Of a stretch of DNA of 64,000 nt, positions 26,322 through 51,575 are shown one piece after another. The stretch's first letter is position 1. The number at the start of each line of letters is the position of its first letter. Below the pieces are notes generated by a model, which worked only from the letters and a program-made list of their open reading frames with translations, searched no databases and was not told the origin of the DNA. The translations under genes and the position numbers were made by a program. Origin of the DNA: Nostocoides sp. Soil756 (GTDB taxonomy: Bacteria; Actinomycetota; Actinomycetes; Actinomycetales; Dermatophilaceae); NCBI RefSeq assembly GCF_001428065.1, contig NZ_LMSE01000001.1, positions 159,709 through 223,708 of the forward strand, written 5' to 3'.

Positions 26322-27503
26322 TCAGCCGAGGTGGCCGCGGACCGACACGTGGCCCTTGAGCAGGTTGCGGGCCAGGGTGCGGCGCTGGATCTCGTCGGTG
26401 CCCTCGTAGATGCGCAGCAGCCGCAGCTCGCGGTACCAGCGCTCGAGCGGCAGCTCGCGGGTGTAGCCCATCCCGCCGTGCACCTGGAGCATCCGGTCGA
26501 CGATCTCGTTGCACTTGACCCCGCCGAAGAGCTTGGCCATCGACTGCGCCTGGCGCGAGTCACGACCCTCGTCGACCTGCCACGCGGCCGACAGCACCAG
26601 CCAGCGCAGCGCCTCGATCTCGGTGGCGGAGTCGGCGATCATCCACTGGATGGCCTGCCGCTCGGCGATCGGCTTGCCGAAGGTCACCCGGTTGCGAGCC
26701 CACTCCATGGCCATCTCGACCATCCGCTCGCAGCCGCCCAGGGCGCGGGCCGGCAGCAGGTAGCGGCCCTTCCCGATCCACTGCATCGCGAGCGCGAAGC
26801 CCTTGCCCTCCTCGCCGAGGATGGCCGAGTGCGGCACCCGCACGTCGTCGAACACCAGTGCCGCCGGGCCCCACTCGCCCATGGTGTCGATCTGCTGCGA
26901 GGTCCAGCCGCGGTCGCGGTCCACCAGGAAACAGGTGACCGACTCCCCGGTGCGCCCCTCCTTGTGGGCCTCGGGGTCGGTGACCGCGAAGACCATCACG
27001 AAGTCGGCCTCGACCCCGCCGGTGATGAAGGTCTTCTCGCCGTTGATGACCCACTCGTCGCCCTCGCGCCGGGCCGAGGTGCGGATGGCGCGCGCGTCGG
27101 AGCCGGCGCCGGGCTCGGTGATGGCGAAGCAGCTCTTGCGGGTGCCCTCGATGGTCGGGCGCAGGTACTCCTCCTGCTGGGCCTCGTTGGCGTGGAAGAG
27201 GATGTTGTCGGCGTCGCCGGCGAAGCGGAACGGCACGAACGAGCGCCCGAGCTCGACCTCGACCAGCGCGGCCATCACCGCCGACAGCCCCATCCCGCCG
27301 TACTCCTCCGGGGTCAGCACGCCGAAGAACCCGGCTTCACGGGCGGTGTCCTGCAGCCGCTTCAGCTCCTCGGGGGGCAGGCCGCGCTCGTGGCGGCGCT
27401 CGCGGGCCAGCACGTCCTGCTCGAGCGGCATGACCTCCTTCTCCACGAAGGTGCGGACCCACTGGCGGATGTCGCGCTCGTCGTCGGTCAGGCTCAGGTC
27501 CAT
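26322..27503 (-). CDS. Acyl-CoA dehydrogenase
   Basis: A 393-residue FAD-dependent acyl-CoA dehydrogenase catalysing alpha,beta-desaturation of an acyl-CoA. The FAD/substrate motif is FAITEPGAGSDARAI (about 130). The C-terminal motif RIYEGTDEIQRRTLARNLLKG holds the likely Glu base. It starts three bases after the stop of the adenylate-forming ligase, so the two are co-transcribed and probably activate and then oxidise the same acid. Chain length is unknown. Confidence 0.93.
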   Translation of the reverse strand: MDLSLTDDERDIRQWVRTFVEKEVMPLEQDVLARERRHERGLPPEELKRLQDTAREAGFFGVLTPEEYGGMGLSAVMAALVEVELGRSFVPFRFAGDADNILFHANEAQQEEYLRPTIEGTRKSCFAITEPGAGSDARAIRTSARREGDEWVINGEKTFITGGVEADFVMVFAVTDPEAHKEGRTGESVTCFLVDRDRGWTSQQIDTMGEWGPAALVFDDVRVPHSAILGEEGKGFALAMQWIGKGRYLLPARALGGCERMVEMAMEWARNRVTFGKPIAERQAIQWMIADSATEIEALRWLVLSAAWQVDEGRDSRQAQSMAKLFGGVKCNEIVDRMLQVHGGMGYTRELPLERWYRELRLLRIYEGTDEIQRRTLARNLLKGHVSVRGHLG

Positions 27504-27506
27504 CGG

Positions 27507-29063
27507 TCAGTCCTCCTGGTGGGTGGCGGTCGGGGTGGGGTCGGCGGCGGGCGTGGGGTCGGCGGCGGGCGCGGCGAACCGGGCCCGCAGCTCGCGCTTG
27601 AGCACCTTGTGGCTGGGGCCGAGCGGCAGCGCGTCGACCACCTCCACCCGGCGCGGGTACTTGTGCTTGCCGAGCCGCTCACGGGCCCAGGCGATCAGCT
27701 CGTCGGGCTCGACCGGTGCCACGCCGGACGGCACGACGACGGCGCACACCTCCTCGCCCTGCATCGCGTCGGGCAGCCCGACCACGGCGACCTGGCCGAC
27801 GCCCTCGTGCCGCGAGAGGACCTCCTCGACGTCGCGCGGGTAGACGTTGAAGCCGCCGCGGATGATGAGGTCCTTCTTGCGGTCGACGACCCGGATGAAG
27901 CCGTCCTCGTCCTTGATGCCGATGTCACCGGTGCGGAACCAGCCGTCGACCAGCACCGCGGCGCTGGCGTCGGGGTCGTCGAGGTAGCCGGCGAAGACGT
28001 TGTGCCCGCGGATGACGATCTCGCCGCGCTCCCCGGTGGGCACCAGGTCGATGCGCTCCTCGACGGCGTCGTCGGCCACCTCGACGTCGACGCCCCACAT
28101 GGGGTGGCCGATGGTGCCGGGGCGCACCCCGAAGCGGCGCTGGTTCGACGTGGCCGTGGGGGAGGTCTCGGACAGCCCGTAGCCCTCGTAGATCGGTGCC
28201 CCGAAGGCCTGCTCGAACCGCTCGAGCACCACCACGGGCAGCGAGGCCCCGCCCGAGATGCAGTCGCGCAGCCGGGGCAGCTCGGCGGCGGCCCCGGCCG
28301 CCTCGACCAGCTGCACGTACATCGTCGGCACGCCCATGAAGATGGTCGCCCGCTCGCGCACCATCAGCTCGATGGCCTGGGCGGCGTCGAAGCGCGGCTG
28401 GAGGACGAGGGTGGCGCCGACCCGGAAGGTGGTGTTCATCGCCACGGTCTGCCCGAAGGTGTGGAACAGCGGGAGGCTGCCCATGATCACGTCGTCGCGG
28501 CGTACCTCGTTGCCGTCGAAGGCGTTGACGGTCGCGTTCATCACGAGGTTGAGGTGGGTGAGCAGGGCGCCCTTCGGCAGGCCCGTCGTGCCGCTGGTGT
28601 AGAAGATCACGGCGGTGTCGGCGGGGTCGCGCGAGACGTACGTGGGCAGCGGGTCGGCGCCGTCGCCCAGACCGGTGAGGCTGACCGCCGGCACGCCCAC
28701 CTCGCCGGCCGCGGGCGCGGCCAGGGCGGCGAGCGCGTCGTGGTGCAGCAGCAGCTCGGCCCCGGAGTGGCGGACCAGGTAGGCGATCTCGCTCGCGCCC
28801 AGGAGCGTCGGCACCGGCACCACGACCCCACCGACGGCGAGGATGCCGTAGTACGACGTGACGAAGTCGGTGACGTTCGGGGCCAGCAGGGCCACCCGGG
28901 TACCGGGCCCCACGCCCCGCGCACGCAGGTCGGCGGCGCTGCGCCGGGCGGCCTCCCACAGGTCCCGGTAAGAGGTGCGGCGGTCGCCCTCGACGACCGC
29001 CGTCGCGGTGGGGGTGCGCAGCGCGCTCTCGGCGAGCAGAACGGCCAGGGACAGGGTGGGCAT
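27507..29063 (-). CDS. Class I adenylate-forming acyl-CoA ligase (FadD-like)
   Basis: A 518-residue AMP-binding enzyme that adenylates a carboxylic acid and transfers it to CoA. The P-loop-like motif is FYTSGTTGLPKGALLTH (about 160); GYGLSETSPT and WFRTGDIGIKDEDGF follow, and the C-terminal lysine is in LGPSHKVLKREL. The tail is a short PAADPT repeat. ATG 29063 has GGAGG five bases upstream; the longer frame to 29381 is unconserved. It pairs with the acyl-CoA dehydrogenase three bases downstream. The substrate is probably a medium or long-chain fatty acid, unproven. Confidence 0.9.
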   Translation of the reverse strand: MPTLSLAVLLAESALRTPTATAVVEGDRRTSYRDLWEAARRSAADLRARGVGPGTRVALLAPNVTDFVTSYYGILAVGGVVVPVPTLLGASEIAYLVRHSGAELLLHHDALAALAAPAAGEVGVPAVSLTGLGDGADPLPTYVSRDPADTAVIFYTSGTTGLPKGALLTHLNLVMNATVNAFDGNEVRRDDVIMGSLPLFHTFGQTVAMNTTFRVGATLVLQPRFDAAQAIELMVRERATIFMGVPTMYVQLVEAAGAAAELPRLRDCISGGASLPVVVLERFEQAFGAPIYEGYGLSETSPTATSNQRRFGVRPGTIGHPMWGVDVEVADDAVEERIDLVPTGERGEIVIRGHNVFAGYLDDPDASAAVLVDGWFRTGDIGIKDEDGFIRVVDRKKDLIIRGGFNVYPRDVEEVLSRHEGVGQVAVVGLPDAMQGEEVCAVVVPSGVAPVEPDELIAWARERLGKHKYPRRVEVVDALPLGPSHKVLKRELRARFAAPAADPTPAADPTPTATHQED

Positions 29064-35964: not shown

Positions 35965-37209
35965 TCAGCGACCGGCGGCGGCCGCCTGGCGCTTCATCTC
36001 GGCCTTGGCGAGGGCGTTCTTGTGCACCTCGTCGGGTCCGTCGGCGAAGCGCAGCGTGCGGTTCATCGCCCACGCCTCGGCCAGCGGGAAGTCCTGCGAG
36101 ATGCCGCCGGCACCGTGCACCTGGATGGCCTTGTCGAGGATCCACTCGACCGTGGCCGGCGTCGCGATCTTGATGGCCTGGATCTCGGTGTGCGCGCCCT
36201 TGTTGCCCTGGGTGTCCATGAGCCACGCGGCCTTGAGCACCAGCAGCCGCAGCTGCTCCAGGCGCACCCGCGACTCGGCGATCCAGTCGCGGATGACGCC
36301 CTGCTCCGACAGCGGCCGGCCGAACGCCACCCGCTCCGAGGCCCGCGCGCACATCAGCTCGATGGCCATCTCGGCCACCCCGATCGCGCGCATGCAGTGG
36401 TGGATGCGGCCGGGGCCGAGGCGCGCCTGGGCGATGGCGAACCCCGCGCCCTCCTCGCCGATGAGGTTGCTCGCCGGGATGCGCACGTCGTGGAACGCCA
36501 GCTCGGCGTGCCCGCCGTGGTCGCGGTCGTCGTAGCCGAAGACCTGCATCGGCCGCACGACCTCGACGCCCTCGGCGTCGCGCGGCACCAGCACCATCGA
36601 CTGCTGCCGGTGCCGGTCGGCCTCGGGGTCGGTCTTGCCCATCACGATGAAGATCTCGCACTGGGGGTTCATCGCCCCGGTGATCCACCACTTCCGGCCG
36701 CTCACGACGTACTCGTCGCCGTCGCGCCGGATGGCGGTCGAGATGTTCGTGGCGTCCGAGGAGGCGACGTCGGGCTCGGTCATCGCGAAGGCCGAGCGGG
36801 TGCGGGCCTCGAGCAGCGGTGTCAGCCAGCGCTCCTTCTGCTCGGGGCTGCCGAACATCGCCAGCACCTCCATGTTGCCGGTATCGGGGGCGGCGCAGTT
36901 GAGGGCCGCGGGCGCCAGCCGACCCAGCCGCCCGGTGAGCTCGGCCAACGGGGCGTACTGCAGGTTGGTCAGGCCCGCCCCGAGGGTCTCGCCGCCGGTC
37001 TGCCCAGGTAGGAACAGGTTCCACAGCCCGCGCCGGCGTGCCTCGGCCCGCAACCGCTCGAGCACCGGGACCGTCGACCAGGCCCAGGGGTCGTCGAGGG
37101 CCGCGACCTGCTCGACGAAGGTCGGCTCGGCGGGGGCCACGTGGCGGCCGATGAAGTCGAGCAGCTCGGTGCGCAGCTCCTCGGTGCGGGCGTCGTGGGC
37201 GAAGTCCAT
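35965..37209 (-). CDS. ACAD10/11-like acyl-CoA dehydrogenase
   Basis: A 414-residue acyl-CoA dehydrogenase of the ACAD10/ACAD11 subgroup, shown by NCAAPDTGNMEVL, MTEPDVASSDATNI, GPGRIHHCMR and ADGPDEVH. In mammals this domain is fused to an APH-type kinase domain and in Pseudomonas its relative LvaC works with the kinase LvaA. There it helps convert a 4-phosphoacyl-CoA to a 3-hydroxyacyl-CoA precursor. Here the kinase gene lies immediately upstream (29-base gap). A role in 4-hydroxy acid catabolism is therefore a reasoned inference. Confidence 0.88.
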   Translation of the reverse strand: MDFAHDARTEELRTELLDFIGRHVAPAEPTFVEQVAALDDPWAWSTVPVLERLRAEARRRGLWNLFLPGQTGGETLGAGLTNLQYAPLAELTGRLGRLAPAALNCAAPDTGNMEVLAMFGSPEQKERWLTPLLEARTRSAFAMTEPDVASSDATNISTAIRRDGDEYVVSGRKWWITGAMNPQCEIFIVMGKTDPEADRHRQQSMVLVPRDAEGVEVVRPMQVFGYDDRDHGGHAELAFHDVRIPASNLIGEEGAGFAIAQARLGPGRIHHCMRAIGVAEMAIELMCARASERVAFGRPLSEQGVIRDWIAESRVRLEQLRLLVLKAAWLMDTQGNKGAHTEIQAIKIATPATVEWILDKAIQVHGAGGISQDFPLAEAWAMNRTLRFADGPDEVHKNALAKAEMKRQAAAAGR

Positions 37210-37238
37210 GGGGTGCTCCTCGGGTGCGGCGGTGGTGG

Positions 37239-38288
37239 TCAGTGCGACGGTCGGGCCAGGGCGTCGAGCCCCGCCCGCAGCAGCGGGTCGACCACGGAGC
37301 CGACCCCCTCGAAGCCCCCGCCGACGGTCTGCCCGGCGAGGTAGCGGTGGTGGATGCCCTCGAGGATGGCCGCGAGCTTGTAGGCGGCCAGCCCGACGTG
37401 GAAGTCGAGGTCGAGAGCACCGGTGCCGGAGGCCGCGGCGTACCGCGCGAGCATCCCGGCCTCGTCGAGGTGCCCCGGTGCGCGCACGGCGTCGGCCACG
37501 GCCCCGGGGGCGAGCTCGGCCAGGCGGCCGTAGAGGACGAGCAGCGCGACGTCGGTGCGGGTGTCGCCGAGCGTCGCCATCTCCCAGTCGATGACGGCGG
37601 CCATCTCGTCGGCGTCGTTGGTGAGGATGTTGTCGAGCCGGTAGTCGCCGTGGACGATGCCCGGGCGGGCCTCGGCCTCGGCGGCCTCGACCCCCGCGGC
37701 CAGCGCGTCGGCCAGCCGGGCCTCGAGCGGGCGCTCGGTGGTCAGCGACTTCTGCATCTGCCCGCGCCAGCGTCGCACCTGGCGGGTCAGGAAGCCCTCG
37801 GGGTGGCCGAAGTCGGCGAGCCCGACCGCGGCCGGGTCGACGGCGTGCAGGGCGGCGAGGGTGTCGACCATCCGCTCGCTGATGACCCGGGTGCGCTCGG
37901 GGCCGAGCGCGGCCAGCTGGGCCGCGGTGCGGTAGGGCGTCCCGGCGACGTCGGCCATCACGTAGAACGGGGCGCCCAGGACGGCCTCGTCCTCGACGTG
38001 CGCGTACGTGGCCGGCACCGGCACGGCGGTGGGACCCAGCGCCGAGATGACGGTGTACTCGCGGCCCATGTCGTGGGCGGTCGCCAGCACGTGGCCGAGC
38101 GGTGGCCGCCGCACGATCCAGGTGCGCTCGCCGTCGCCGACCCGGTAGGTGAGGTTCGACTTGCCCCCGGCGATGAGGGTGGCGCTGAGGTCGCGCTCAC
38201 CCAGCGCGGTGGCCGGGTCGCCCGCCAGGTGCTCGCGCCACCACGCCGAGAGGGCGGCGGGGTCGAGGCCGGGGGTCTGGGTCGTCAC
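37239..38288 (-). CDS. APH-family kinase, candidate 4-hydroxyacyl-CoA kinase
   Basis: A 349-residue aminoglycoside-phosphotransferase-fold kinase. It has a nucleotide lysine region WIVRRPPLG, the catalytic loop GIVHGDYRLDNIL (about residue 215) and the metal motif AVIDWEMATLGD (about 240). Members next to ACAD11-like dehydrogenases (LvaA in Pseudomonas, the N-terminal domain of mammalian ACAD10/11) phosphorylate 4-hydroxyacyl-CoA, not antibiotics. The GTG start overlaps the MaoC stop (GTGA). Resistance to aminoglycosides is unlikely. Confidence 0.85.
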   Translation of the reverse strand: MTTQTPGLDPAALSAWWREHLAGDPATALGERDLSATLIAGGKSNLTYRVGDGERTWIVRRPPLGHVLATAHDMGREYTVISALGPTAVPVPATYAHVEDEAVLGAPFYVMADVAGTPYRTAAQLAALGPERTRVISERMVDTLAALHAVDPAAVGLADFGHPEGFLTRQVRRWRGQMQKSLTTERPLEARLADALAAGVEAAEAEARPGIVHGDYRLDNILTNDADEMAAVIDWEMATLGDTRTDVALLVLYGRLAELAPGAVADAVRAPGHLDEAGMLARYAAASGTGALDLDFHVGLAAYKLAAILEGIHHRYLAGQTVGGGFEGVGSVVDPLLRAGLDALARPSH

Positions 38289-38743
38289 GGGACGAGCACG
38301 CTCAGGACCTCGGCGACACAGCCGGGCTTGTCCTGGCCCTCGACCTCGACGGTGACCCGGGCCCGCAGCTGGAAGCCGCCGCCGCCCGGCTCGAGCGCCA
38401 GGAGCTCGACCCGGGCCCGCACCCGCGAGCCGACGCGCACCGGCGACGGGAAGCGCACCCGGTCGCTGCCGTAGTTGACGCCCATCGAGATGCCCTCGAC
38501 CGCGTAGACCTGCCACACCAGCATCGGCACCAGCGACAGGGTGAGGTAGCCGTGCGCGATGGTGGCGCCGAACGGGCCGGATGCCGCCCGCTCGGGGTCG
38601 ACGTGGATCCACTGGTGGTCACCGGTGGCCTCGGCGAAGAGGTCGACCTGCTCCTGGGTCACGGTGTGCCAGGGCGAGTACCCCAGGTGCATGCCGACGG
38701 CCGTGCGCAGGTCGTCGATGCCGTCGAAGGTGCGCACCGCCAT
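38285..38743 (-). CDS. MaoC-like hydratase/dehydratase
   Basis: A 152-residue hot-dog-fold enoyl-CoA hydratase-like protein. The catalytic Asp/His motif appears as ATGDHQWIHVDPERAA (about 31-47), followed by FGATIAHGYLTLSL. It probably hydrates an enoyl-CoA in the operon's degradation pathway. Its start and stop overlap both neighbours (TGATG and GTGA), showing tight coupling. Confidence 0.9.
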   Translation of the reverse strand: MAVRTFDGIDDLRTAVGMHLGYSPWHTVTQEQVDLFAEATGDHQWIHVDPERAASGPFGATIAHGYLTLSLVPMLVWQVYAVEGISMGVNYGSDRVRFPSPVRVGSRVRARVELLALEPGGGGFQLRARVTVEVEGQDKPGCVAEVLSVLVP

Positions 38744-39498
38744 CAGTCCCTCGGGCCGCCGGCCACGTAGATGACCTGGCCCGACACGAAGCCGGCGCCC
38801 TCGCTGCAGAGGAACGAGGCGGTGTGCGCGATGTCCTCGGGGCGACCGACGCGCGCGACCGGGATCTCCTTGGCCGCGGCCGCCTTGAACGCCTCGAACT
38901 CCATGCCGACGCGCGCGGCGGTGGCGGCGGTCATGTCGGTGGCGATGAACCCCGGCGCGATGGCGTTGGCGGTGACGCCGTAGCGCCCCAGCTCGAGCGC
39001 GAGCGTCTTGGTGAAGCCCTGCATGCCGGCCTTGGCGGCGGCGTAGTTCGCCTGGCCGCGGTTGCCGAGGGCCGAGGTGCTCGACAGGTTGACGATGCGC
39101 CCGAACTTCGCCTCGACCATGTGCGCCTGGCAGGCCCGGCTCATCAGGAAGGCCCCGCGCAGGTGCACGTTCATCACGGCGTCCCAGTCGTCGGTGGTCA
39201 TCTTGAAGAGCAGGTTGTCGCGGATGATGCCGGCGTTGTTGACCAGCACCGTGGGCGCGCCCAGCTCGGTGGCGATGCGCTCGACGGCAGCGGTGACGGC
39301 GGCCTCGTCGGCGACGTCGCAGCCCACGGCCAGGGCCCGGCCACCGGCGTGGGTGATGTCGTCGACGACGCTCTGGCAGGCGGACTCGTCGAGGTCGACG
39401 ACGGCCACGGCCATCCCGTCGGACGCGAGGCGGCGGGCGACCTCGGCGCCGATGCCGCGGGCGGCTCCGGTGACGACGGCGGTGCGGGGGGTGCTCAT
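38743..39498 (-). CDS. SDR oxidoreductase (FabG-like)
   Basis: A 251-residue classical short-chain dehydrogenase. TGAARGIG binds the cofactor near residue 12, followed by NNAG near 88. The catalytic Ser/Tyr/Lys appear in LSSTSALGNRGQANYAAAKAG, and VAGGPRD closes the protein. It is FabG-like and probably reduces or oxidises a 3-oxo/3-hydroxyacyl-CoA. It overlaps the MaoC start. A 70-base gap separates it from the preceding SDR, which could hold an internal promoter. Confidence 0.9.
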   Translation of the reverse strand: MSTPRTAVVTGAARGIGAEVARRLASDGMAVAVVDLDESACQSVVDDITHAGGRALAVGCDVADEAAVTAAVERIATELGAPTVLVNNAGIIRDNLLFKMTTDDWDAVMNVHLRGAFLMSRACQAHMVEAKFGRIVNLSSTSALGNRGQANYAAAKAGMQGFTKTLALELGRYGVTANAIAPGFIATDMTAATAARVGMEFEAFKAAAAKEIPVARVGRPEDIAHTASFLCSEGAGFVSGQVIYVAGGPRD

Positions 39499-39568
39499 GG
39501 TGCTCCTTGCGGGTCGGGGCGGCCGGTGGGTCCGGTGCCCGGTGTGGTCGGGGTGGTCGGTGTCGGGG

Positions 39569-40429
39569 TCAGGCGGGTGGTCCGGTGCGGGCCGCGGGAC
39601 CGGCGCCGCCGCCCGGGCCGGGGAGGGTGCCGGCGTCCTCGAGCTTGCGCTGGAGGCGGTTCATCCCGGCCAGCCAGCGGTCGGGGTCGGTGGCCCGAGC
39701 GGCGGAGTAGCCCGCGACCTCGGGGTGGGGCAGCACGTAGAAGCGGTCGTGGGCCAGCGCCTCGAACGCGAGGTCGGCGACCTCGGCGGGGGTGCGGGTG
39801 TCGTCGCGGCCCAGCATCTCCTGCAGGCCGGCGGCCGCCTCGAGCATCCGGGTGGCGACGCCCTGGGGGCAGATGGCCTGCACCACGACGCCGCGGTGTC
39901 GGTAGGTGGCCGAGAGCCACTCGGCGAAGGCGACCGCGCCGTGCTTGCTGACCGAGTAGGTGGGGCTGCCCAGCATCGTCAGAAGCCCGGCGGCCGAGGC
40001 GGTCACGACGAAGCGGCCCGACCCGCGCTCGAGCCAGCGGGGCACCAGCAGCCGGGCGGCGCGCACGTGCGCCATGACGTTGACGTCGTGGGTGCGGGCC
40101 CACTGCTCGTCGGTGGAGGCCAGCCCGTCGCCGAGGTCGATGCCGGCGTTGCCGAACCAGACGTCGACGTCGCCGAGATGGGCCAGCGCCCCCTCGACCA
40201 GCGCGGTGACGCCGTCGTCGGTGGCGAGGTCGGCCACGAGCGGGTGGGCTCCGGTGGCGTCGGCGACCGCCGCCAGGGCGTCGCCGTCGACGTCGGCCGC
40301 CACGACCCGCAGGCCGGCCGCCGTCATCCGGCGGGTCAGGGCCTCGCCGATGCCGTGGGCGGCGCCGGTGACGACGACCCCCACGGCGCCGACGGCGCCC
40401 GGGGCCGCGTCCGGCGCCGCGTCCGGCAT
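39569..40429 (-). CDS. SDR oxidoreductase
   Basis: A 286-residue short-chain dehydrogenase with VTGAAHGIGEAL, a GNAGID segment replacing NNAG, and the catalytic SAAGLLTMLGSPTYSVSKHG. The C-terminus extends 20 residues as a Gly/Pro-rich tail. It starts at ATG 40429, overlapping the previous SDR stop (TGATG). Three SDRs in one operon suggest several hydroxy/keto conversions in the pathway; their order is unknown. Confidence 0.87.
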   Translation of the reverse strand: MPDAAPDAAPGAVGAVGVVVTGAAHGIGEALTRRMTAAGLRVVAADVDGDALAAVADATGAHPLVADLATDDGVTALVEGALAHLGDVDVWFGNAGIDLGDGLASTDEQWARTHDVNVMAHVRAARLLVPRWLERGSGRFVVTASAAGLLTMLGSPTYSVSKHGAVAFAEWLSATYRHRGVVVQAICPQGVATRMLEAAAGLQEMLGRDDTRTPAEVADLAFEALAHDRFYVLPHPEVAGYSAARATDPDRWLAGMNRLQRKLEDAGTLPGPGGGAGPAARTGPPA

Positions 40430-41199
40430 CAGACGCCCCCGGTGAGGGTGACCCCACCGTCGACGACCACGGTCTGCCCGGTGAGCCAGCCCGCGTCGTC
40501 GGAGAGGAGGAACGCCACGACACTGCCGATGTCGTCGGGCACGCCGAGGCGCTTCAGGGGGTACTGCGCGGCCACCTGCTCCTCGCGGCCCTCGTAGAGC
40601 GCCTTCGCGAAGTCGGTCTTGACGACGGCCGGTGCGACGGCATTGACCCGCACCCCGGGGCCGAGCTCGACGGCCAGCTCCTCGGTGAGGTGGATGAGCG
40701 CGGCCTTGCTGGTGCCGTACATGGCGATGCCGGGGGCGGGCTTGATGCCGGCGACCGAGGCGACGTTGACGACGGAGCCGCCGTGCTCGCGCATCCAGGC
40801 GGTGTGGGCGGCCTGGGTCCATGCGAGCGCCGCGACCACGTTGACCTCGACGATCTTGCGGGCGATGCCGAGGTCGAGGCCCATGAGGGGCCCGTAGGCC
40901 GGGTTGATGCCGGCGTTGTTGACGAGCAGGTCGAGGGAGCCGAAGCGGTCGAGGCAGGCCTGCACGGCGGCGGCGCGGTGGTCGGCGTCGTCGGCCTTGC
41001 CCGCGACGGCCGCGGCGTGCTCGGGGCCGCCGAGGTGCGCGACGGCCTCGTCGAGGGCGTCCTGGCCGCGAGCCGTGAGGACGACGCGGCCGCCCTCGGC
41101 CACGATCCGCTCGGCGATGCCGAGTCCGATGCCGCGGCTGGCGCCGGTGACCAGCGCGGTGCGGCCCTCGAGGCGCCGCTGGGGCGCTGCGCCGCTCAT
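40429..41199 (-). CDS. SDR oxidoreductase
   Basis: A 256-residue short-chain dehydrogenase with VTGASRGIGLGIAE, NNAGINPAYGP, the catalytic Ser then Tyr-x3-Lys in SVAGIKPAPGIAMYGTSKAA, and LTGQTVVVDGGVTL at the end. The start at 41199 overlaps the thiolase stop (ATGA). It is probably a hydroxyacyl-CoA dehydrogenase. Confidence 0.9.
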   Translation of the reverse strand: MSGAAPQRRLEGRTALVTGASRGIGLGIAERIVAEGGRVVLTARGQDALDEAVAHLGGPEHAAAVAGKADDADHRAAAVQACLDRFGSLDLLVNNAGINPAYGPLMGLDLGIARKIVEVNVVAALAWTQAAHTAWMREHGGSVVNVASVAGIKPAPGIAMYGTSKAALIHLTEELAVELGPGVRVNAVAPAVVKTDFAKALYEGREEQVAAQYPLKRLGVPDDIGSVVAFLLSDDAGWLTGQTVVVDGGVTLTGGV

Positions 41200-42416
41200 G
41201 AGAGCCGCTCCAGCACCATCGCCATGCCCTGACCGCCGCCGACGCACATGGTTTCCAGTCCGATCTGCCCGTCGCGGTGACGGAGCCCGTTGATGAGGGT
41301 GGAGGTGAGGCGCGCGCCGGTCATCCCGAACGGGTGGCCGACCGCGATGGCGCCGCCGTGGACGTTGAGCCGGTCGTCGTCGATACCCAGCTCGCGGGCC
41401 GAGGCGATGACCTGGGCCGCGAAGGCCTCGTTGAGCTCGACCAGGTCGACGTCGCCGATGCCCATGCCGGCGCGCTCGAGGGCGCGGCGGCTGGCGTCGA
41501 CCGGGCCGAGGCCCATGATCTCGGGGCTGAGGCCCGAGACCGCGGTGGAGACGATGCGCGCGAGCGGGGTGATGCCCAGCTCGCGGGCCCGGACGTCGCT
41601 CATGACGACCACGGCCGCAGCCCCGTCGTTGAGCGGGCAGCAGTTGCCGGCGGTGACGGTGCCGTCGGGGCGGAAGACCGGCTGCAGCTGGGAGACCGCC
41701 TCGTAGGTGACCCCGGCGCGCGGGCCGTCGTCGCGGTCGACCACGGTGCCGTCGGGCAGGGTGACCGGGGTGATGTCGGTGGCCCAGAAGCCGTCGGCGA
41801 TGGCCTGCTCGGCGCGGTTCTGGCTGCGGACGCCGAAGCGGTCCTGGTCCTCGCGCGAGACGCCCTTGAGCTGGGCGACGTTCTCGGCCGTCTGGCCCAT
41901 CGCGATGTAGATGTCGGGCAGGTCGCCGTCGTCGCGCGGGTCGCTCCACGTGGGGGCGCCGCCCTCGGAGCGGCGCGCGGTGCGGGCGGTGGCGTCGTCG
42001 AAGCGGGGGTTCTGGCTGCCCGGGATGCCGTCGGCGCGCCCGTTCTCGTAGCGGCTGACGGTCTCGACGCCCATCGAGACGAAGGCGTGCCCCTCGCCGG
42101 AGCGGATGGCGTGCAGCGCCATCCGGGTCGTCTGGAGGGAGGAGGAGCAGTAGCGGTTGACGGTGGTGCCGGGCAGGTGGTCCATCCCGGCCAGGACGGC
42201 GACGACGCGCGCGAGGTTGTAGCCGGACTCCCCGGCGGGCTGCCCGACGCCGAGCATCAGGTCCTCGATCTCGCTCCGGTCGAGGGCGGGGACCTGCGCG
42301 AGCGCGGCCTCGAGCATCTGGACGGCGAGGTCGTCGGGGCGGGCCGAGGCCAGGGAACCCTTGCGGGCCCGGCCGATCGGGGACCTCGCGGTCGCGACGA
42401 TCACGGCTTCGGGCAT
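41196..42416 (-). CDS. Acetyl-CoA C-acyltransferase (thiolase)
   Basis: A 406-residue degradative thiolase that splits 3-oxoacyl-CoA with CoA. The nucleophilic Cys is in VNRYCSSSLQT (about residue 92), the His in GGAIAVGHPFGMTGAR (about 360), and the second Cys in ETMCVGGGQGMAM near the end. It is the first gene of a leftward operon running to the ACAD11-like gene. A palindromic operator lies 37-54 bases upstream of its start. Confidence 0.93.
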   Translation of the reverse strand: MPEAVIVATARSPIGRARKGSLASARPDDLAVQMLEAALAQVPALDRSEIEDLMLGVGQPAGESGYNLARVVAVLAGMDHLPGTTVNRYCSSSLQTTRMALHAIRSGEGHAFVSMGVETVSRYENGRADGIPGSQNPRFDDATARTARRSEGGAPTWSDPRDDGDLPDIYIAMGQTAENVAQLKGVSREDQDRFGVRSQNRAEQAIADGFWATDITPVTLPDGTVVDRDDGPRAGVTYEAVSQLQPVFRPDGTVTAGNCCPLNDGAAAVVVMSDVRARELGITPLARIVSTAVSGLSPEIMGLGPVDASRRALERAGMGIGDVDLVELNEAFAAQVIASARELGIDDDRLNVHGGAIAVGHPFGMTGARLTSTLINGLRHRDGQIGLETMCVGGGQGMAMVLERLS

Positions 42417-42452
42417 CGTGCACCTCCGTGGGGCAGCGGGCGTTCCTGTGCT

Positions 42453-42470
42453 TGACTAAGCGCTTGTTCA
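42453..42470. promoter_or_regulatory. TetR-type operator over the tetR promoter
   Basis: TGACTAAGCGCTTGTTCA is an imperfect palindrome centred on AAGCGCTT. Its core, ACTAAGCGCTTGTT, differs at one conserved position from the KstR2 motif AnCAAGnnCTTGnT as I remember it. It overlaps the -35 (TTGACT, 42452-42457) of a promoter whose -10 is CAGCAT (42475-42480), pointing to the TetR gene, implying autorepression and control of the divergent thiolase operon. Confidence 0.65.
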
Positions 42471-42521
42471 GCCCCAGCATGGACGGGCGGCGCACCGCCG
42501 TCAACCCCGGGAGGAGGCGGC

Positions 42522-43124
42522 GTGAGCAGTCCCTCACGACGGGCCGCCCGGCCCGAGGAGCCCCGCGACCGGCTGTTCGCCGCGGCCGTCGAGACCTTCG
42601 CCGCGCAGGGCTTCCACGGGACGACGACCCGCGACATCGCCGCGGCGGCGGGGATGAGCCCGGCCGCGCTGTACGTGCACCACCGCTCGAAGGAGGAGAT
42701 CCTCTTCCGGATCTCGCGGCGCGGGCACGAGACGACCCTCGGCATCCTGCGGGCGGCCCGGGCGTCCAGCGACGACCACCTCGAGCGGCTGCACGCCGTG
42801 GTGCGCGAGTTCGTGACCTACCACGCGCGCTCGCACACCTCGGCGCGCGTCGTGAACTACGAGCTGGCCGCGCTGGCGCCCGAGCACCTCGAGGAGATCC
42901 AGGTGCTGCGGCACGCCATCGACGCCGAGGTCCAGACCGTGGTGCGCGACGGGGTGGACGCGGGGGTGTTCGCGTGCCCCGAACCCCGGATCGCGGCGGC
43001 CGCGCTGCTGTCGCTCGGGGTCGACGTGGCCCGCTGGTGGCGTGACGGCGGCGCCTGGACGCCGGAGGAGCTGGGCGAGCACTACGCCGACGTGGCGCTG
43101 CGCATCGTCGGGGTCGTGCGCTAG
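42522..43124 (+). CDS. TetR/AcrR-family regulator
   Basis: A 200-residue repressor. The helix-turn-helix is at about 15-65 (AAVETFAAQGFHGTTTRDIAAAAGMSPAALYVHHRSKEEILF) and a TetR_C-type ligand domain follows (WWRDGGAWTPEELGEHYADVALRIVG). GGAGG precedes the GTG start. It is divergent from the acyl-CoA operon with a palindrome between them, so it most likely releases DNA on binding an acyl-CoA intermediate. It resembles KstR2-type regulators in layout, but orthology is not claimed. Confidence 0.9.
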   Translation: MSSPSRRAARPEEPRDRLFAAAVETFAAQGFHGTTTRDIAAAAGMSPAALYVHHRSKEEILFRISRRGHETTLGILRAARASSDDHLERLHAVVREFVTYHARSHTSARVVNYELAALAPEHLEEIQVLRHAIDAEVQTVVRDGVDAGVFACPEPRIAAAALLSLGVDVARWWRDGGAWTPEELGEHYADVALRIVGVVR

Positions 43125-46516: not shown

Positions 46517-47794
46517 TCACTTCTGGAACGGCGTCTTGAACGCCTCGGCCTCCTTGGAGGTGTAGGGCTCGGGCTGCACGAGCTCGAGACCGCCCTCGAC
46601 CTTGGCCGGCTTCATCAGGTAGACGGCGCGCGTCGACGGCTCGCCGGGCTTGGTGAAGTCGAGGATGCTCGGGGCCAGGCCACCGGTGTCCACCTTGGTC
46701 TGGGCCTTGGCGTCGAGGATGCCCTGACGGGTCAGGTCACCGGCGTCGCAGGCCTTCTTGAGCATCTCGCCCCAGGTCTGCCCGAAGGTGTAGCCGACGA
46801 GCGGGCCGAAGGTGGGGGTGTCCTGGTACTTCTCCTTGTAGCGCTTCGCGAGCTCCTGGACCTTGGGGTCGCTGGAGTTGAAGGGCTGGATGCCGGCGGC
46901 GGTGATGAACTGGCCGCTGGTGAGGGCGGCGGCCGCCGGGGTGCCGAGCAGCTGGGGCGCGTACGTGGGGTTGCTGCCGAAGATCGGCACGTTCAGCCCC
47001 TGGGCCGCGGCCTGGCCCACGGCCGAGGCGGTCTGCGCCGGCGTGGTCGTCAGCATGATGGCCTTGACCCCGGCCGACTTCAGCGCCGTGATCGAGCTCG
47101 TGAGGTCGGCGTCGGTGGAGGTGACCGTCTTGGGCACCATCGTCATGTTGTGCTCCTTGGCGAAGGCCGAGGAGCCGGCGTACCCGTTCTTGCCGTACTC
47201 GCTGTCGATGTAGATGTGCCCGATGGAGTCGCCCTCCTTGATCTTGCCCTGCTCCATCAGGTAGCTCATGCCGTTGACCATCTCGACGTCGTAGGTCGTC
47301 CCGACCATGACGACCTCGGGCACGTCGAGGTTGGTCGACGCCCAGGACGAGGGCACCGCCGAGACCTTGTCGTCGACCATCGGCTTCTTCAGCGCCGCGA
47401 GGATCGGCGAGCCGAGCAGCTGCACGTACCCCAGCACCTGGCCCTTGGTCTGGTTGTAGAGCGGGACGGCCTTCTCGGCCGAGTAGCCGTGGTCGCTGGA
47501 GGTGATCTTGATCTTGCGGTTGCAGATGCCCCCCGCCGCGTTGACGTCCTCCGCCCACATCTCGGTGCCCTGGGTGATGCCGAGACCGAGGATCTTGAAC
47601 ACCCCCGAGAGGTCGGTGAGGTTGCCGAGCGTGATCTCGGTGTCGGTGACGCCGACGTCGGTCTTGACCGCGCCCTCGCCGCTGGCGCCGCCGCCCGAGC
47701 CACCGGTCTGCGCCTTGCTGCTGCAGCCGGCCAGGGCGAGGGACGAGACGACCACGGAGGCCGCCAGAGCTCTCGCGAGCTTCTTCGTGCTCAT
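46517..47794 (-). CDS. livK: Branched-chain amino acid type ABC substrate-binding lipoprotein
   Basis: A 425-residue periplasmic-binding protein of the Leu/Ile/Val family, anchored as a lipoprotein: lipobox LALAGC with Cys24, then a Gly/Ser linker. The Venus-flytrap fold starts at about residue 50 (ITLGNLTDLSGVFKILG). Ligands of this family range from branched-chain amino acids to aromatic acids and urea, so the specificity is not known. It is the last gene of the importer operon, 74 bases after the LivM gene. That gap has the palindrome CCGGACGTCCGG, and AAGGAA serves as ribosome site. Confidence 0.88.
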   Translation of the reverse strand: MSTKKLARALAASVVVSSLALAGCSSKAQTGGSGGGASGEGAVKTDVGVTDTEITLGNLTDLSGVFKILGLGITQGTEMWAEDVNAAGGICNRKIKITSSDHGYSAEKAVPLYNQTKGQVLGYVQLLGSPILAALKKPMVDDKVSAVPSSWASTNLDVPEVVMVGTTYDVEMVNGMSYLMEQGKIKEGDSIGHIYIDSEYGKNGYAGSSAFAKEHNMTMVPKTVTSTDADLTSSITALKSAGVKAIMLTTTPAQTASAVGQAAAQGLNVPIFGSNPTYAPQLLGTPAAAALTSGQFITAAGIQPFNSSDPKVQELAKRYKEKYQDTPTFGPLVGYTFGQTWGEMLKKACDAGDLTRQGILDAKAQTKVDTGGLAPSILDFTKPGEPSTRAVYLMKPAKVEGGLELVQPEPYTSKEAEAFKTPFQK

Positions 47795-47868
47795 CTGGGT
47801 TCCTTTCTGGGTACCCGGACCGGACGTCCGGAGTCGAGGGGCCCGTCAGGGACGGGCGGGCAGGGAGG

Positions 47869-49068
47869 TCACGATCGCTTCAGCCGGGCCGTCAGGCGAC
47901 GGCCCAGCGCGGCGAGACCACCGGGTTCGAAGAGCACGATCAGCACGATCAGGGCTCCGTACGCGAGGTAGGTGATGACGACCGGCGAGAACGCCGTGCC
48001 CCCGGAGGAGAGCACCGCCGAGCTGTCGCCCTGGCTGAGCAGCGGGATGATCAGCGGCGTCCCGAACACCACCGCGGCGCCGACGATGGCGCCCCCGAGC
48101 GAGCCGAGGCCCCCGATCACGACCATCGCGAGGTAGGCGATGGCCACGGCCGTGCTGTAGGTGCCGGAGTCGACGGCCTCGTCGGGCTTGAGCAGCCCGT
48201 CGTACCACCACACGACCATGACCCCAGCGAGGCCGGCGTACGCCGAGGAGACCGCGAACGCCACGGACTTCTGCCGCACCACCGACACGCCCATGACGGT
48301 GGCCGCGGCCTCGTTGTCGCGCACCGCGCGCCAGGCGCGCCCGACCCGGCCGTCGACGGCGCCGCGCGCTACGAAGTAGGCGATGAGGGTGAGGGCGGCG
48401 TAGAGCCAGAAGAGACGCTCGTTCTGCCCGATGGGCACCCCGAGGATCGCCAGGGTGGGTGACTTCTCGCCGAAGTCGAACCCGAACAGGTTCAGGTCGT
48501 CGGCGTAGCGGCCGCTGGAGGTGCTGCCGGCGATCGAGGGCAGCACGCGCGCCAGCCACCAGCCGAGGAAGACCAGGCTCAGCGAGGCCACGCCCAGGTA
48601 GATGCCGGTCAGCCGCCCGGACACCGGCGCGAACGCCGCTCCGACCGCGGCGCTGATGGCCACGGCCAGCACCAGGCTGAGGGCGGTCGGCAGGCCGAGC
48701 CCGACGAAGCCGTCGGTGCCGTCGCTCGAGAGCACCGTATAGCTGACGCCGCCGACGAGCAGGAAGAACGAGTGCGCGAGCGAGAGCTGCCCCGCCTGGC
48801 CGATCAGCATGGTCAGGCCCATCGCCCCGACGGCGCCGGTCATCACCCAGGTGCTGACGATCAGGTACTGCCCCGGGAGGTAGATCGGGACGAGGAACAG
48901 CACGACGACCAGCGCCCCCCACAGCAGCCAGCGCCGCCGGTCGCGGCGCGGGTGGACAGCCGGCATCCCGCCCTGTCCGTCCGGGGCGGCGGAGTCGGTC
49001 TCGGCCGCGTCGACCCCGGTCGCGCCCGCGGTCGGGCCGGTGGCCTCGGCCCTGGTGGTCTCAGACAC
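47869..49068 (-). CDS. livM: ABC permease LivM
   Basis: A 399-residue inner-membrane permease of the branched-chain amino acid type, with about nine hydrophobic segments and the cytoplasmic coupling-loop region GRAWRAVRDNEAAATVMGV. The N-terminal 40 residues are an Ala/Thr/Glu-rich cytoplasmic extension. The GTG start overlaps the LivH stop by eight bases. Confidence 0.9.
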   Translation of the reverse strand: MSETTRAEATGPTAGATGVDAAETDSAAPDGQGGMPAVHPRRDRRRWLLWGALVVVLFLVPIYLPGQYLIVSTWVMTGAVGAMGLTMLIGQAGQLSLAHSFFLLVGGVSYTVLSSDGTDGFVGLGLPTALSLVLAVAISAAVGAAFAPVSGRLTGIYLGVASLSLVFLGWWLARVLPSIAGSTSSGRYADDLNLFGFDFGEKSPTLAILGVPIGQNERLFWLYAALTLIAYFVARGAVDGRVGRAWRAVRDNEAAATVMGVSVVRQKSVAFAVSSAYAGLAGVMVVWWYDGLLKPDEAVDSGTYSTAVAIAYLAMVVIGGLGSLGGAIVGAAVVFGTPLIIPLLSQGDSSAVLSSGGTAFSPVVITYLAYGALIVLIVLFEPGGLAALGRRLTARLKRS

Positions 49069-49942
49069 GGACCTGCTCCACCTTCCCGAACAGCCCCGAC
49101 GGTCTGGCGACCAGGACGACGAGCATGACGAGGTAGACGGCGACCTTCGCGAAGTCGTTGTCGATGTACTGGGAGGCGGAGGACTCGGCGAGCCCGACCA
49201 CCAGTCCCCCGACGACGGCGCCGCCGGGCGAGGTGAGACCCCCGAGGATGGCCGCGGGGAAGGCCGCGAAGGCGATGGTGTGGGCGGCGGTCAGGCCGGC
49301 CCCCCCGGCGACCGGGAGGGTGGCGATGAACAGGATGGCGATGGCGGCCAGCGCGCCGCCGAGGGCCCAGGCGCTGGCCGTGACCCGCCAGCTGCGGATC
49401 CCCATCAGGGCGGCCGCCTCCTTGTTCTCGGACTGCGCCCGCATCGTCAAGCCCCACGTCGAGAAGCGGAACGCGACGAAGAACCCGCCGATGAGCACGA
49501 TCGCGGTCAGCAGCGCGAACAGCTCCGGCCCTTCGATGGTGGCGCCGAGGAACCGCAGCCGGACGTCCTGGTACGGGTCGCCGAGGAAGGGCGCCGATGC
49601 CGTCCCCAGCCGTCTGGTGATCTCGGTGAGGATGAGGATGTCGACGCCGATGGTGAGGATGGCGAGCGAGTCCTGGGAGGCGAGCTTGGCCCTCGCCAGC
49701 AGCACGCGCTCGATGAGCACGGCGAGCGCGGCGGCGGCGAGGACTCCGCAGACGGCGGCGCCGAGCCAGCCGAGCGTGGGCTTGAGCGCGAACACGATGT
49801 AGCCGCCGAACAGCGCGAGCGACCCGTGCGCGAAGTTGATGACCTCGGTCGACTTGTAGATGACGACGAAGCCCAGGGCCAACAGGGCGTAGATCGCCCC
49901 GCGGCCGGTGCCGTTGAGCAGGACCTGGACGAAGGTGCTCAT
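49061..49942 (-). CDS. livH: ABC permease LivH
   Basis: A 293-residue permease partner to LivM, with the typical start NGTGRGAIYALLALGFVVIYKSTEVINFAHG and coupling loop MRAQSENKEAAALMGI. ATG 49942 overlaps the LivG stop (ATGA); longer frames are antisense-like, arginine-rich sequence. Confidence 0.9.
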   Translation of the reverse strand: MSTFVQVLLNGTGRGAIYALLALGFVVIYKSTEVINFAHGSLALFGGYIVFALKPTLGWLGAAVCGVLAAAALAVLIERVLLARAKLASQDSLAILTIGVDILILTEITRRLGTASAPFLGDPYQDVRLRFLGATIEGPELFALLTAIVLIGGFFVAFRFSTWGLTMRAQSENKEAAALMGIRSWRVTASAWALGGALAAIAILFIATLPVAGGAGLTAAHTIAFAAFPAAILGGLTSPGGAVVGGLVVGLAESSASQYIDNDFAKVAVYLVMLVVLVARPSGLFGKVEQVRV

Positions 49943-50790
49943 GCGCTCTCCTCCTCGACCGAGCCCAGGTAGGCCCGGATGACGGCGGGGTCCTTCTGGA
50001 CCACCGCCGGGGTGTCGTCGGCGATGAGCCGGCCGAAGTCGAGCACGGTGACCCGGTCGGCGATGCCCATGACCAGCCCCATGTCGTGCTCGACCAGCAG
50101 GATCGAGATCGACAGCCCCGTGCTGATGTCGCGGATGAGGTGCGCCAGCTCGGCGGTCTCGGACGCGTTCATCCCGGCGGCCGGCTCGTCGAGCAGCAGC
50201 ACGGTGGGCTCGACGGCCAGCGCCCGCGCGATGTCGACCCGCTTCTGGTCGCCGTAGGACAGCACGCCGGCCGGGCGGTGCAGGTGGGCGCCGATGCCGA
50301 GGAAGTCGCAGATCTCGGCGGCCCGCTCCTCGTGGCGACGCTCTGCCCGCATGGTGCGCGGCAACCGCAGGCCGTAGGACAGGAAGCCGCCCGAGGTCAG
50401 CGAGTACCGGCCGAGCATCACGTTGTCGAGCACCGAGGAGCCGGCGACCAGGGCCAGGTTCTGGAACGCGCGCCCCACCCCGAGCCGGGCCACCTGGTGG
50501 GGCGGGGTGTCGGTGAGTACGGCGTCGCCGAGGGTGACCCGCCCGCTGGTGGGCCGGTAGATGCCGGTGACGGCGTTGAAGCACGTCGACTTGCCGGCGC
50601 CGTTCGGCCCGATCAGGGCGTGGATGGAGCGTGGCGCCACCGAGAACGACACCGCGTCGAGCGCGACGATGCCGCCGAAGCGCACCGTGACGTCCTCGAC
50701 GGCCAGGGTGGGGATCTCGCGGGCGCCGGCGGGCACGTCGGCAGGGGGTGCACCCGGGGTGGGGTGCGCGGTGGTGTCGGGCATCGTCAT
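49939..50790 (-). CDS. livG: ABC ATP-binding protein LivG
   Basis: A 283-residue ATPase. Walker A GPNGAGKST is near residue 63, the ABC signature is replaced by LSYGDQKRVDIARAL, as often in LivG, and Walker B is VLLLDEPAAGMN. The first 30 residues are a disordered Ala/Pro extension. The start at 50790 overlaps the LivF stop (ATGA), with a second Met two codons on. Confidence 0.9.
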   Translation of the reverse strand: MTMPDTTAHPTPGAPPADVPAGAREIPTLAVEDVTVRFGGIVALDAVSFSVAPRSIHALIGPNGAGKSTCFNAVTGIYRPTSGRVTLGDAVLTDTPPHQVARLGVGRAFQNLALVAGSSVLDNVMLGRYSLTSGGFLSYGLRLPRTMRAERRHEERAAEICDFLGIGAHLHRPAGVLSYGDQKRVDIARALAVEPTVLLLDEPAAGMNASETAELAHLIRDISTGLSISILLVEHDMGLVMGIADRVTVLDFGRLIADDTPAVVQKDPAVIRAYLGSVEEESA

Positions 50791-51575
50791 CCCTTCCAGG
50801 CCGACAGGATGCGGCGGGGGCGGGCGGGGGCGTCGGTCTCGTGCGCGTCGTCGGCGTGACCGCCGAGGTAGAGCCGCTGGACGTCCTCGCTGGCGGCGAG
50901 CTCGGCGGAGGACCCCGCGAGGGCCAGCCGTCCCACCTCGAGGACCACCGCGCGGTGCGAGACCTGCAGCGCCATCGAGGCGTTCTGCTCGACCAGCACG
51001 ACGGCGGTGCCGCCGGCGTTGATCTCGGTGACGATGCGCCCGATCCGCTGGATGAGCTGGGGGGCGAGCCCGAGCGAGGGCTCGTCGAGCAGCAGCACGA
51101 CCGGGTCGCACATCAGGGCGCGCCCGATGGCGAGCATCTGCTGCTCGCCGCCGGACAGGAGCCCGGCGGGCTGGGCGGAGCGGTCGGCCAGCACCGGGAA
51201 GAGCTCGTGGACCCGGGCCTTGGCGGCCGCGCGCCGCTTCGGCTCGGCCGCGAGGCCGCCGACGCGCAGGTTCTCCTCGACGGTCATCCGGCCGAAGACC
51301 TGGCGCCCCTCGGGCACCTGCATCAGCCGGCGCCGCACGATCGCGGCCGGGTCGAGGGTGTCGAGGCGGGTGCCGTCGAGGGTGACCGAGCCCGAGGTGA
51401 CGGTGCCGCGGTGCAGGGCCAGCGTGGCGGAGATCGCTCGCAGGAGGGTGGACTTGCCGGCGCCGTTGCTGCCGAGGACGGCGACGACCTCGCCGTCGGC
51501 CACGTCGAAGGACACATCGTGCAGGGCCTGCACGGCACGTCCGTAACGGACGGAGACGTTCTCGATCTTCAGCAC
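50787..51575 (-). CDS. livF: ABC ATP-binding protein LivF
   Basis: A 262-residue ATPase and first gene of the importer operon. Walker A GSNGAGKST is near residue 38, the signature is LLSGGEQQMLAIGRAL, and Walker B is VVLLLDEPSLGL. GTG start with AGGAG about ten bases upstream. The 256-base region to the divergent egtB gene must hold both promoters; I see no clear operator in it. Confidence 0.9.
   Translation of the reverse strand: MLKIENVSVRYGRAVQALHDVSFDVADGEVVAVLGSNGAGKSTLLRAISATLALHRGTVTSGSVTLDGTRLDTLDPAAIVRRRLMQVPEGRQVFGRMTVEENLRVGGLAAEPKRRAAAKARVHELFPVLADRSAQPAGLLSGGEQQMLAIGRALMCDPVVLLLDEPSLGLAPQLIQRIGRIVTEINAGGTAVVLVEQNASMALQVSHRAVVLEVGRLALAGSSAELAASEDVQRLYLGGHADDAHETDAPARPRRILSAWKG

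Follow-up and report, generated by a model that had tools for sequence, protein, structure and literature searches.

The 64,000 nucleotides of contig NZ_LMSE01000001.1 of Nostocoides sp. Soil756 analysed here (the window, on which all coordinates are given) contain at 35965-43124 an operon that probably encodes the entry of 4-hydroxy acids into beta-oxidation by the kinase/ACAD11 route. The locus consists of seven minus-strand genes, for a thiolase, three short-chain dehydrogenases/reductases (SDR1, SDR2 and SDR3), a MaoC-type hydratase, an APH-fold kinase and an ACAD11-like acyl-CoA dehydrogenase (ACAD), together with a divergent TetR gene. In the proposed pathway a CoA ligase would make the 4-hydroxyacyl-CoA, the kinase would phosphorylate its 4-hydroxyl group to give 4-phosphoacyl-CoA, and the ACAD11-like flavoenzyme would remove the phosphate to leave 2-enoyl-CoA. 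MaoC, the FabG-like SDR3 and the thiolase would then finish a turn of R-type beta-oxidation, SDR1 and SDR2 would interconvert 4-oxo- and 4-hydroxyacyl-CoA as LvaD does, and TetR would repress the operon from a palindrome between its own gene and the thiolase gene. An initial annotation had described a coupled operon in which thiolase, MaoC and three SDRs accompany the kinase and the ACAD. All eight genes lie where it placed them, and the motifs HGDYRLDN, IDWEMATLGD, VASSDATNI, GPGRIHHCMR and ADGPDEVH are each present in the translated proteins. Overlaps join thiolase to SDR1 (4 bp), SDR1 to SDR2 (1 bp), SDR3 to MaoC (1 bp) and MaoC to the kinase (4 bp), with gaps of 70 bp between SDR2 and SDR3 and of 29 bp between the kinase and ACAD genes.

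The dehydrogenase (35965-37209, minus strand, 414 amino acids), proposed as the flavoenzyme that eliminates phosphate from 4-phosphoacyl-CoA, is by homology a member of the ACAD10/11-type family with its active-site residues kept. It matches mouse ACAD11 in the PDB at E 5.4e-134, and no ordinary ACAD does better than 8.4e-41 in that search; its identity to mouse ACAD11 is 53% across 409 amino acids. Residues R626, H634, R637 and D753 of ACAD11, which have been tied to the 4-phosphoacyl substrate and to catalysis (PMC12440821), align with R263, H271, R274 and D390 of the operon protein. The complete R-HCMR-D set is present in 122 of the 133 aligned ACAD rows; of the remaining 11, three, including PDB 4hr3, read RHAMRD, another is truncated and seven are other ACADs that lack the set. 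Trees were built by a quick method with SH-aLRT support only. In the ACAD tree the ACAD11-like rows stand apart from other ACADs (support 100) and the operon protein falls in an actinobacterial set of 15 rows (support 99), while the next match within its own genome is 37% identical. The family named by the initial annotation is thus borne out by PDB search, active-site residues and tree alike. It had proposed that phosphate is eliminated toward a 3-hydroxyacyl-CoA; the mammalian product is mainly enoyl-CoA, with 3-hydroxyacyl-CoA the lesser one (PMC11342911).

The proposed 4-hydroxyacyl-CoA kinase (37239-38288, minus strand, 349 amino acids, GTG start) has a Pfam APH domain (168 bits) and matches the kinase domain of mouse ACAD11 at E 9.5e-35 in the PDB search; like the ACAD match, this lies well beyond chance. 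Its PDB matches at E<=1e-3 number six (9o56, 3dxp, two ACAD11 entries, 9fsg and 3ats), with no choline or macrolide kinase among them. R176, D220 and N225 of mouse ACAD11 correspond to R169, D215 and N220 here, and R, D and N are kept at these positions in all 124 aligned rows. The pair R76-E77, invariant in 14 of 14 alignment rows, is likened by description only to the published R86, an Arg beside the alpha-C Glu, since that number does not coincide with this residue in our numbering. The kinase lies within an actinobacterial set of 24 rows (support 96). Five other APH proteins of its own genome split from it at a support of no more than 63, and the outgroup branches measure 5-10 changes per column. 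With so weak a split and such long branches, the family placement is taken from the PDB search. The earlier placement with ACAD10/11-type kinases, and not with choline or macrolide kinases, accords with that search and with the residues, and the tree agrees at the lower support just given. No second match to the kinase was found in its own genome at E<=1e-3; another APH-family protein in the window (5144-5908, plus strand; PF01636, E 1.4e-7) is likewise unmatched by the operon kinase at that threshold. PDB entry 3dxp, deposited as 'putative acyl-CoA dehydrogenase', aligns with the operon kinase over its full length and probably owes its name to fused ACAD10/11 homologues.

Kinase and ACAD occur together well outside this window. 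A survey of 12 genomes of the genus distinguished a window-like pair (type A) from a divergent one (type B), and all 12 carry an ACAD11-like protein and a kinase of the same kind. Six have the window pair, with the kinase 78-98% and the ACAD 85-98% identical to those of the window, its own excluded. The other six have a divergent pair (kinase 35-37%, ACAD 52-54%) in the order ACAD-SDR-kinase-SDR, which clusters with Ideonella, Pseudoalteromonas and Acinetobacter sequences in both the kinase and the ACAD trees. It appears from these trees and identities that kinase and ACAD have been exchanged as a unit within the genus. The divergent pair is followed in five of the six type-B genomes by a gene for 319-321 amino acids, a 2-hydroxyacid dehydrogenase in the one locus checked (L197), from whose sequence a TetR-like gene upstream of the pair was also read; genome G002 contains one more kinase (42%) and one more ACAD, a weak match (38%). 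Neighbourhoods were counted on tblastn maps with identity thresholds of our own choosing, which show only stretches resembling the reference proteins, and 15 of the 80 kinase loci taken from genome contigs are shorter than 18 kb, where absences weigh less. An ACAD11-like gene is present in 70 of the 80 loci, in 69 of them within 300 bp of the kinase and on the same strand, and of 296 genomes drawn from across the phylum, 110 encode an ACAD11-like protein (E<=1e-90). By these counts the core of the pair is widespread, not rare.

The pair also stands in other settings on plasmids. On a plasmid of Streptomyces sp. NBC_00388 (L075, 7853-17508) it is part of an apparent biosynthetic cluster with AfsA-related, KAS III and CoA-transferase genes, which may represent a biosynthetic use of the same chemistry. 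Three proteobacterial plasmid operons (L097, L101 and L103) combine the kinase, the ACAD11-like gene and an SDR with a histidine phosphatase, assigned by annotation and for L103 by Pfam, and a fourth (L102) has a similar order as judged by its open reading frames. Pseudomonas does not appear among the matches listed in the plasmid searches.

The remaining operon genes are consistent with a complete beta-oxidation turn. The first gene (41196-42416) encodes a thiolase that scores 762.6 bits against NF005890, above the cut-off of 580. The MaoC-type enoyl-CoA hydratase (38285-38743; Pfam MaoC, 102.9 bits), proposed to be R-specific, has Rv0130 as its best PDB match (E 1.2e-54). SDR3 (38743-39498), FabG-like and proposed as a (3R)-hydroxyacyl-CoA dehydrogenase, scores 235 bits against NF009466 (cut-off 222), and its PDB matches include the (3R)-hydroxyacyl-CoA dehydrogenase 2et6, FabG and BbsD. 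MaoC, SDR3 and thiolase would together make up an R-type beta-oxidation set. A syntenic operon on a plasmid of Tsukamurella tyrosinosolvens (L074) encodes, in order, thiolase, two SDRs, a quinone-oxidoreductase-like protein (QOR), HAD, FabG, MaoC, kinase, ACAD11, two ACADs, a phosphotriesterase (PTE) and a ligase. SDR2 (39569-40429, 286 amino acids; Pfam adh_short, 132 bits) is 62% identical to the equally placed SDR of that operon. SDR1 (40429-41199), a candidate 4-oxo/4-hydroxyacyl-CoA oxidoreductase, finds its best PDB match in DHRS4 (E 9.9e-54), which we take to be a carbonyl reductase, and its role would be like that of LvaD. The SDRs that accompany the pair in Azoarcus, Paraburkholderia and Burkholderia have SDR1 or its Tsukamurella counterpart as their best reference match (35-39%); unlike these, the Ideonella SDR and the ACAD-adjoining SDR of Pseudoalteromonas match the counterpart of SDR2, at 28-29%. 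In three of the six type-A species (G001, G004 and G007) a QOR gene, 69-77% identical to the Tsukamurella one, lies directly upstream of SDR3, where the window has its 70 bp gap (39499-39568). QOR lies between SDR2 and SDR3 in L078 and L080, and between SDR1 and SDR3 in L079, where SDR2 was undetected; the window genome, G006 and G009 contain nothing closer to QOR than 42-44%.

About 6.9 kb downstream of the operon and on the same strand, at 26322-29063, lie adjoining genes for an AMP-forming acyl-CoA ligase (27507-29063; Pfam AMP-binding) and for ACADb (26322-27503), an ordinary acyl-CoA dehydrogenase with the ordinary catalytic Glu in the alignment. The ligase, a candidate source of the 4-hydroxyacyl-CoA, shares 46% identity with the ligase of the Tsukamurella operon and 65% with one that immediately follows the kinase in Actinomadura atramentaria (L172). 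The genes that immediately follow ACAD11 in L081 and L082 match ACADb at 82% and 80% identity. The remark of the initial annotation that the operon has no ligase is literally correct, but a ligase-ACAD pair stands nearby and its relatives lie inside such operons elsewhere, which weakens the missing ligase as a reason for a distinct route. An orthologue of the ligase (at least 78% identical) is present in five of the six type-A genomes, the window's own included, and in none of the six type-B genomes (Fisher p 0.015, shared ancestry ignored). It is on the contig and strand of the kinase, 8-18 kb away, in G001, G004 and G006 and on a different contig in G009; G007 has no orthologue. On the other side of the operon, about 4 kb upstream, an ABC transporter of the branched-chain-amino-acid type (46517-51575, minus strand) has a binding protein assigned to Pfam Peripla_BP_6 and permeases and ATPases assigned by sequence reading. 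Comparable transporter sets (25-48% identity) are found near the kinase/ACAD pair in L086, L091 and L092, and the one in the window possibly serves substrate uptake.

The divergent regulator (42522-43124, plus strand; Pfam TetR_C_24) has 3him as its best PDB match, with KstR2 weaker (E 8e-12). A palindrome, ACTAAGCGCTTGTT, at 42455-42468 (plus strand) within the 105 bp between the thiolase and TetR genes is a putative TetR operator. Sites scoring at least 11 of 14 against ACTAAGCGCTTAGT are present in 18 of 21 TetR-upstream regions of mapped loci, and the same score is reached by about 1.2% of 3000 random 300-base pieces from those loci. A search of the whole genome with ACTAAGCGCTTNNT, allowing one mismatch, gave two matches, both exact; a reversed control pattern also gave two. 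The second match ends in GCT, not GTT, and lies between two divergent genes (L218:11802-13693), one for a TetR paralogue with 47% identity, the other for an acyl-CoA dehydrogenase. That dehydrogenase is 46% identical to the TetR-adjoining one of the Tsukamurella operon, similar genes adjoin TetR in L089, L090 and L093, and this second, unlinked ACAD may belong to the same regulon. The palindrome matches, with one mismatch, what we take to be the KstR2 consensus. Steroid control of the KstR2 type was considered and set aside, the regulator being nearest to 3him and weakly KstR2-like and the sites of relatives fitting ACTAAGCGCTTGYT better; no steroid link is claimed.

Four known systems resemble parts of this operon, and the chemistry of the kinase/ACAD reaction has been described for the first of them (PMC12440821, PMC11342911), with the reaction demonstrated for mammalian and Burkholderia enzymes, including in-vitro activity of the B. 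pseudomallei counterparts (PMC11342911). Mammalian ACAD11 and ACAD10 have both enzyme halves, and the ACAD catalytic Asp, HCMR, the upstream Arg and the kinase Arg, Asp and Asn are the same here (residues compared with ACAD11). They differ in being fused, whereas separate genes in a beta-oxidation operon are found here, with no HAD gene, a statement that covers the operon only. The HAD domain of ACAD10 keeps one of two Asp residues and restrains the kinase (PMC11342911), and a separate HAD gene with a one-Asp motif makes eight related loci resemble ACAD10. In or beside the cluster at L074, L094, L099, L106, L108, L119, L160 and L212, the HAD nucleophile motif is D-[YWF]-G-G in 8 of 8, with one Asp where DxD has two. 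The PDB matches of the operon HAD are weak (best E 1.2e-9); likened by the description of the motif, it and the ACAD10 domain might, at a guess, have a common origin.

The lva operon of Pseudomonas putida shares kinase, ACAD and SDR in one place and an available ligase (gene content, via PMC6692424). The initial annotation took the missing LvaB-like partner as a sign of a distinct route, and within the operon no LvaB-like gene stands beside the kinase, which is 29 bp from the ACAD gene and overlaps its upstream neighbour by 4 bp. The conclusion drawn from that absence is weakened by two published cases: the levulinate cluster of P. citronellolis has no lvaB homologue (PMC6692424), and ACAD10 and the B. 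pseudomallei counterparts are active in a paper from which the word LvaB is absent (PMC11342911). The P. citronellolis cluster is also like the window operon in having kinase, ACAD and SDR without LvaB; it differs by a histidine phosphatase gene (PMC6692424), which the operons of Azoarcus, Ideonella and Pseudoalteromonas also carry and the window operon does not. Finally, the qsd genes of Rhodococcus comprise a lactonase, a CoA ligase and TetR control (PMC6262395, PMC3689677), which in some relatives are found beside the pair. They differ in that no PTE-type lactonase was found in the window genome, and in that the kinase/ACAD step is unassigned in the portions of those two papers used here.

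Several results count against the 4-hydroxy acid route or restrict it. The route is well supported as homology, and what that homology is made to carry is a predicted activity. Identity between the operon kinase and the kinase domain of mouse ACAD11 is no more than 29%, the value also published for LvaA against the ACAD10/11 kinases (PMC11342911). Ten of the 80 kinase loci yielded no ACAD11-like gene, and at L099, L111 and L172 the kinase has similar surroundings with no ACAD11-like gene in the stretch covered; because of such loci the kinase may have other uses. The operator count is partly circular, the consensus having been fixed after the site was seen in seven of 18 loci, and it ignores shared ancestry. 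No copy of the motif lies upstream of the window ligase, and shared regulation of that gene by the same site was set aside, the sole other match to ACTAAGCGCTTAGT in the window (at most three mismatches) being at 17778. Set against P. putida lva by gene content, the window operon lacks an LvaB-like gene, has TetR in place of LvaR and adds thiolase, MaoC and extra SDRs.

Candidates for the natural substrate in this organism are a 4-hydroxy acid derived from a gamma-lactone, a 4-oxo acid such as levulinate, and a 4-hydroxy fatty acid. If a gamma-lactone were the starting point, a lactonase would open it before ligase, kinase and ACAD11 act, and the operon would be the lower half of the actinobacterial quorum-quenching gamma-lactone pathway, a proposal to which we give somewhat less than an even chance. 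The phosphotriesterase of the Tsukamurella operon, which is accompanied by a ligase, matches PDB 4if2 at E 2.2e-109, with motifs in the alignment that we take to hold the metal ligands. Related lactonase genes follow ACAD11 in Nocardioides phosphati (L108) and lie near the cluster in Amycolatopsis (L114); in L212 a lactonase and a ligase face kinase, ACAD11 and SDR2, and L213 has the order ACAD11, SDR1, kinase, MaoC, lactonase. The 296-genome sample includes 27 genomes with a PTE-like lactonase, which directly adjoins an ACAD11-like gene on the same strand in nine, lies within 6 kb of one in G342 and G269, and is not near one in the other 16. In Rhodococcus, gamma-lactones are opened by QsdA, after which a beta- or omega-oxidation step is said to break down the resulting chain (PMC3689677); QsdC is a ligase and QsdR a TetR protein (PMC6262395), and gamma-caprolactone, which Rhodococcus uses, is the lactone of 4-hydroxyhexanoate (PMC6476934). 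These lactonase-bearing relatives suggest one source from which 4-hydroxy acids may come. Against a lactone, a PTE-like lactonase is found at only two of the 80 kinase loci. The nine adjacent cases (L203-L211) all belong to a single family, coded f34, where they span five genus codes and make up nine of its 15 carriers; the stretches covered there, with the ACAD11-like gene followed by the PTE-like gene, contain no kinase. A search limited to the PTE type, which did pick up the family in 15 of 58 relatives and in two of the 14 controls, found no such lactonase either in the window genome or across the 12 genus genomes surveyed, and this too speaks against a lactone in this organism.

A route of the levulinate type, in which 4-oxo acids are activated, an SDR reduces the 4-oxoacyl-CoA and the last steps fall to kinase and ACAD, as in Pseudomonas lva, seems to us doubtful. 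SDR1 is found at 17 and SDR2 at 47 of the 80 kinase loci at our thresholds, an SDR also accompanies the pair in four proteobacterial plasmid operons, and next to the levulinate genes of P. citronellolis lies a set of this kind that lacks LvaB (PMC6692424). On the other side, the operon has a divergent TetR and no sigma-54-type regulator like LvaR, no gene lies between kinase and ACAD, and the specificity of an SDR cannot be read from its sequence. That the kinase instead modifies an antibiotic or another small molecule, its place beside the ACAD being incidental, is very improbable. The APH family does include aminoglycoside kinases, and the Streptomyces plasmid pair does stand near an AfsA-related protein; but the best NCBIfam APH model scores 34.6 on the kinase against a cut-off of 205, its top PDB matches include ACAD11, and the adjacency at 69 of 80 loci and the apparent exchange of the pair within the genus do not look incidental. 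An antibiotic-resistance kinase was rejected because of these scores and neighbouring genes.

A broader reading starts from the proposed 4-hydroxy acid operon and would see in it one part of an actinobacterial regulon for gamma-lactones and 4-hydroxy acids, marked by an operator like ACTAAGCGCTTGYT. Its members would be lactonase, CoA ligase, kinase, ACAD11 and R-type beta-oxidation, forming the lower half of the rhodococcal pathway. SDR1 and SDR2 would epimerise 4-hydroxyacyl-CoA via the 4-oxo form, both enantiomers thereby reaching an R-preferring kinase, and the one-Asp HAD of the fuller operons would be a stand-alone ancestor or counterpart of the kinase-restraining HAD domain of ACAD10. 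Taken jointly, these proposals are speculative and rather unlikely all to hold. Among the open-licence papers listed in the searches, none was found that assigns the kinase/ACAD11 reaction in actinobacteria, or a kinase or ACAD to the rhodococcal step after lactone opening. A 2012 proteomic study of R. erythropolis may already name the enzymes; that study, by Barbey et al. (cited in PMC3689677), reportedly dealt with gamma-caprolactone catabolism. What seems to be new is the operator-like site with its conservation, the exchange of kinase and ACAD as a pair, and the existence of relatives that carry a lactonase, ligase or HAD gene.

If the 4-hydroxy acid route is correct, it would explain how these bacteria burn 4-hydroxy acids and would supply candidate genes for the step that follows lactone opening. 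The regulator site would then offer a handle for finding the remaining genes of the pathway, and the relatives in which HAD, kinase and ACAD are three genes would be a natural split ACAD10 in which the role of the HAD part could be probed.

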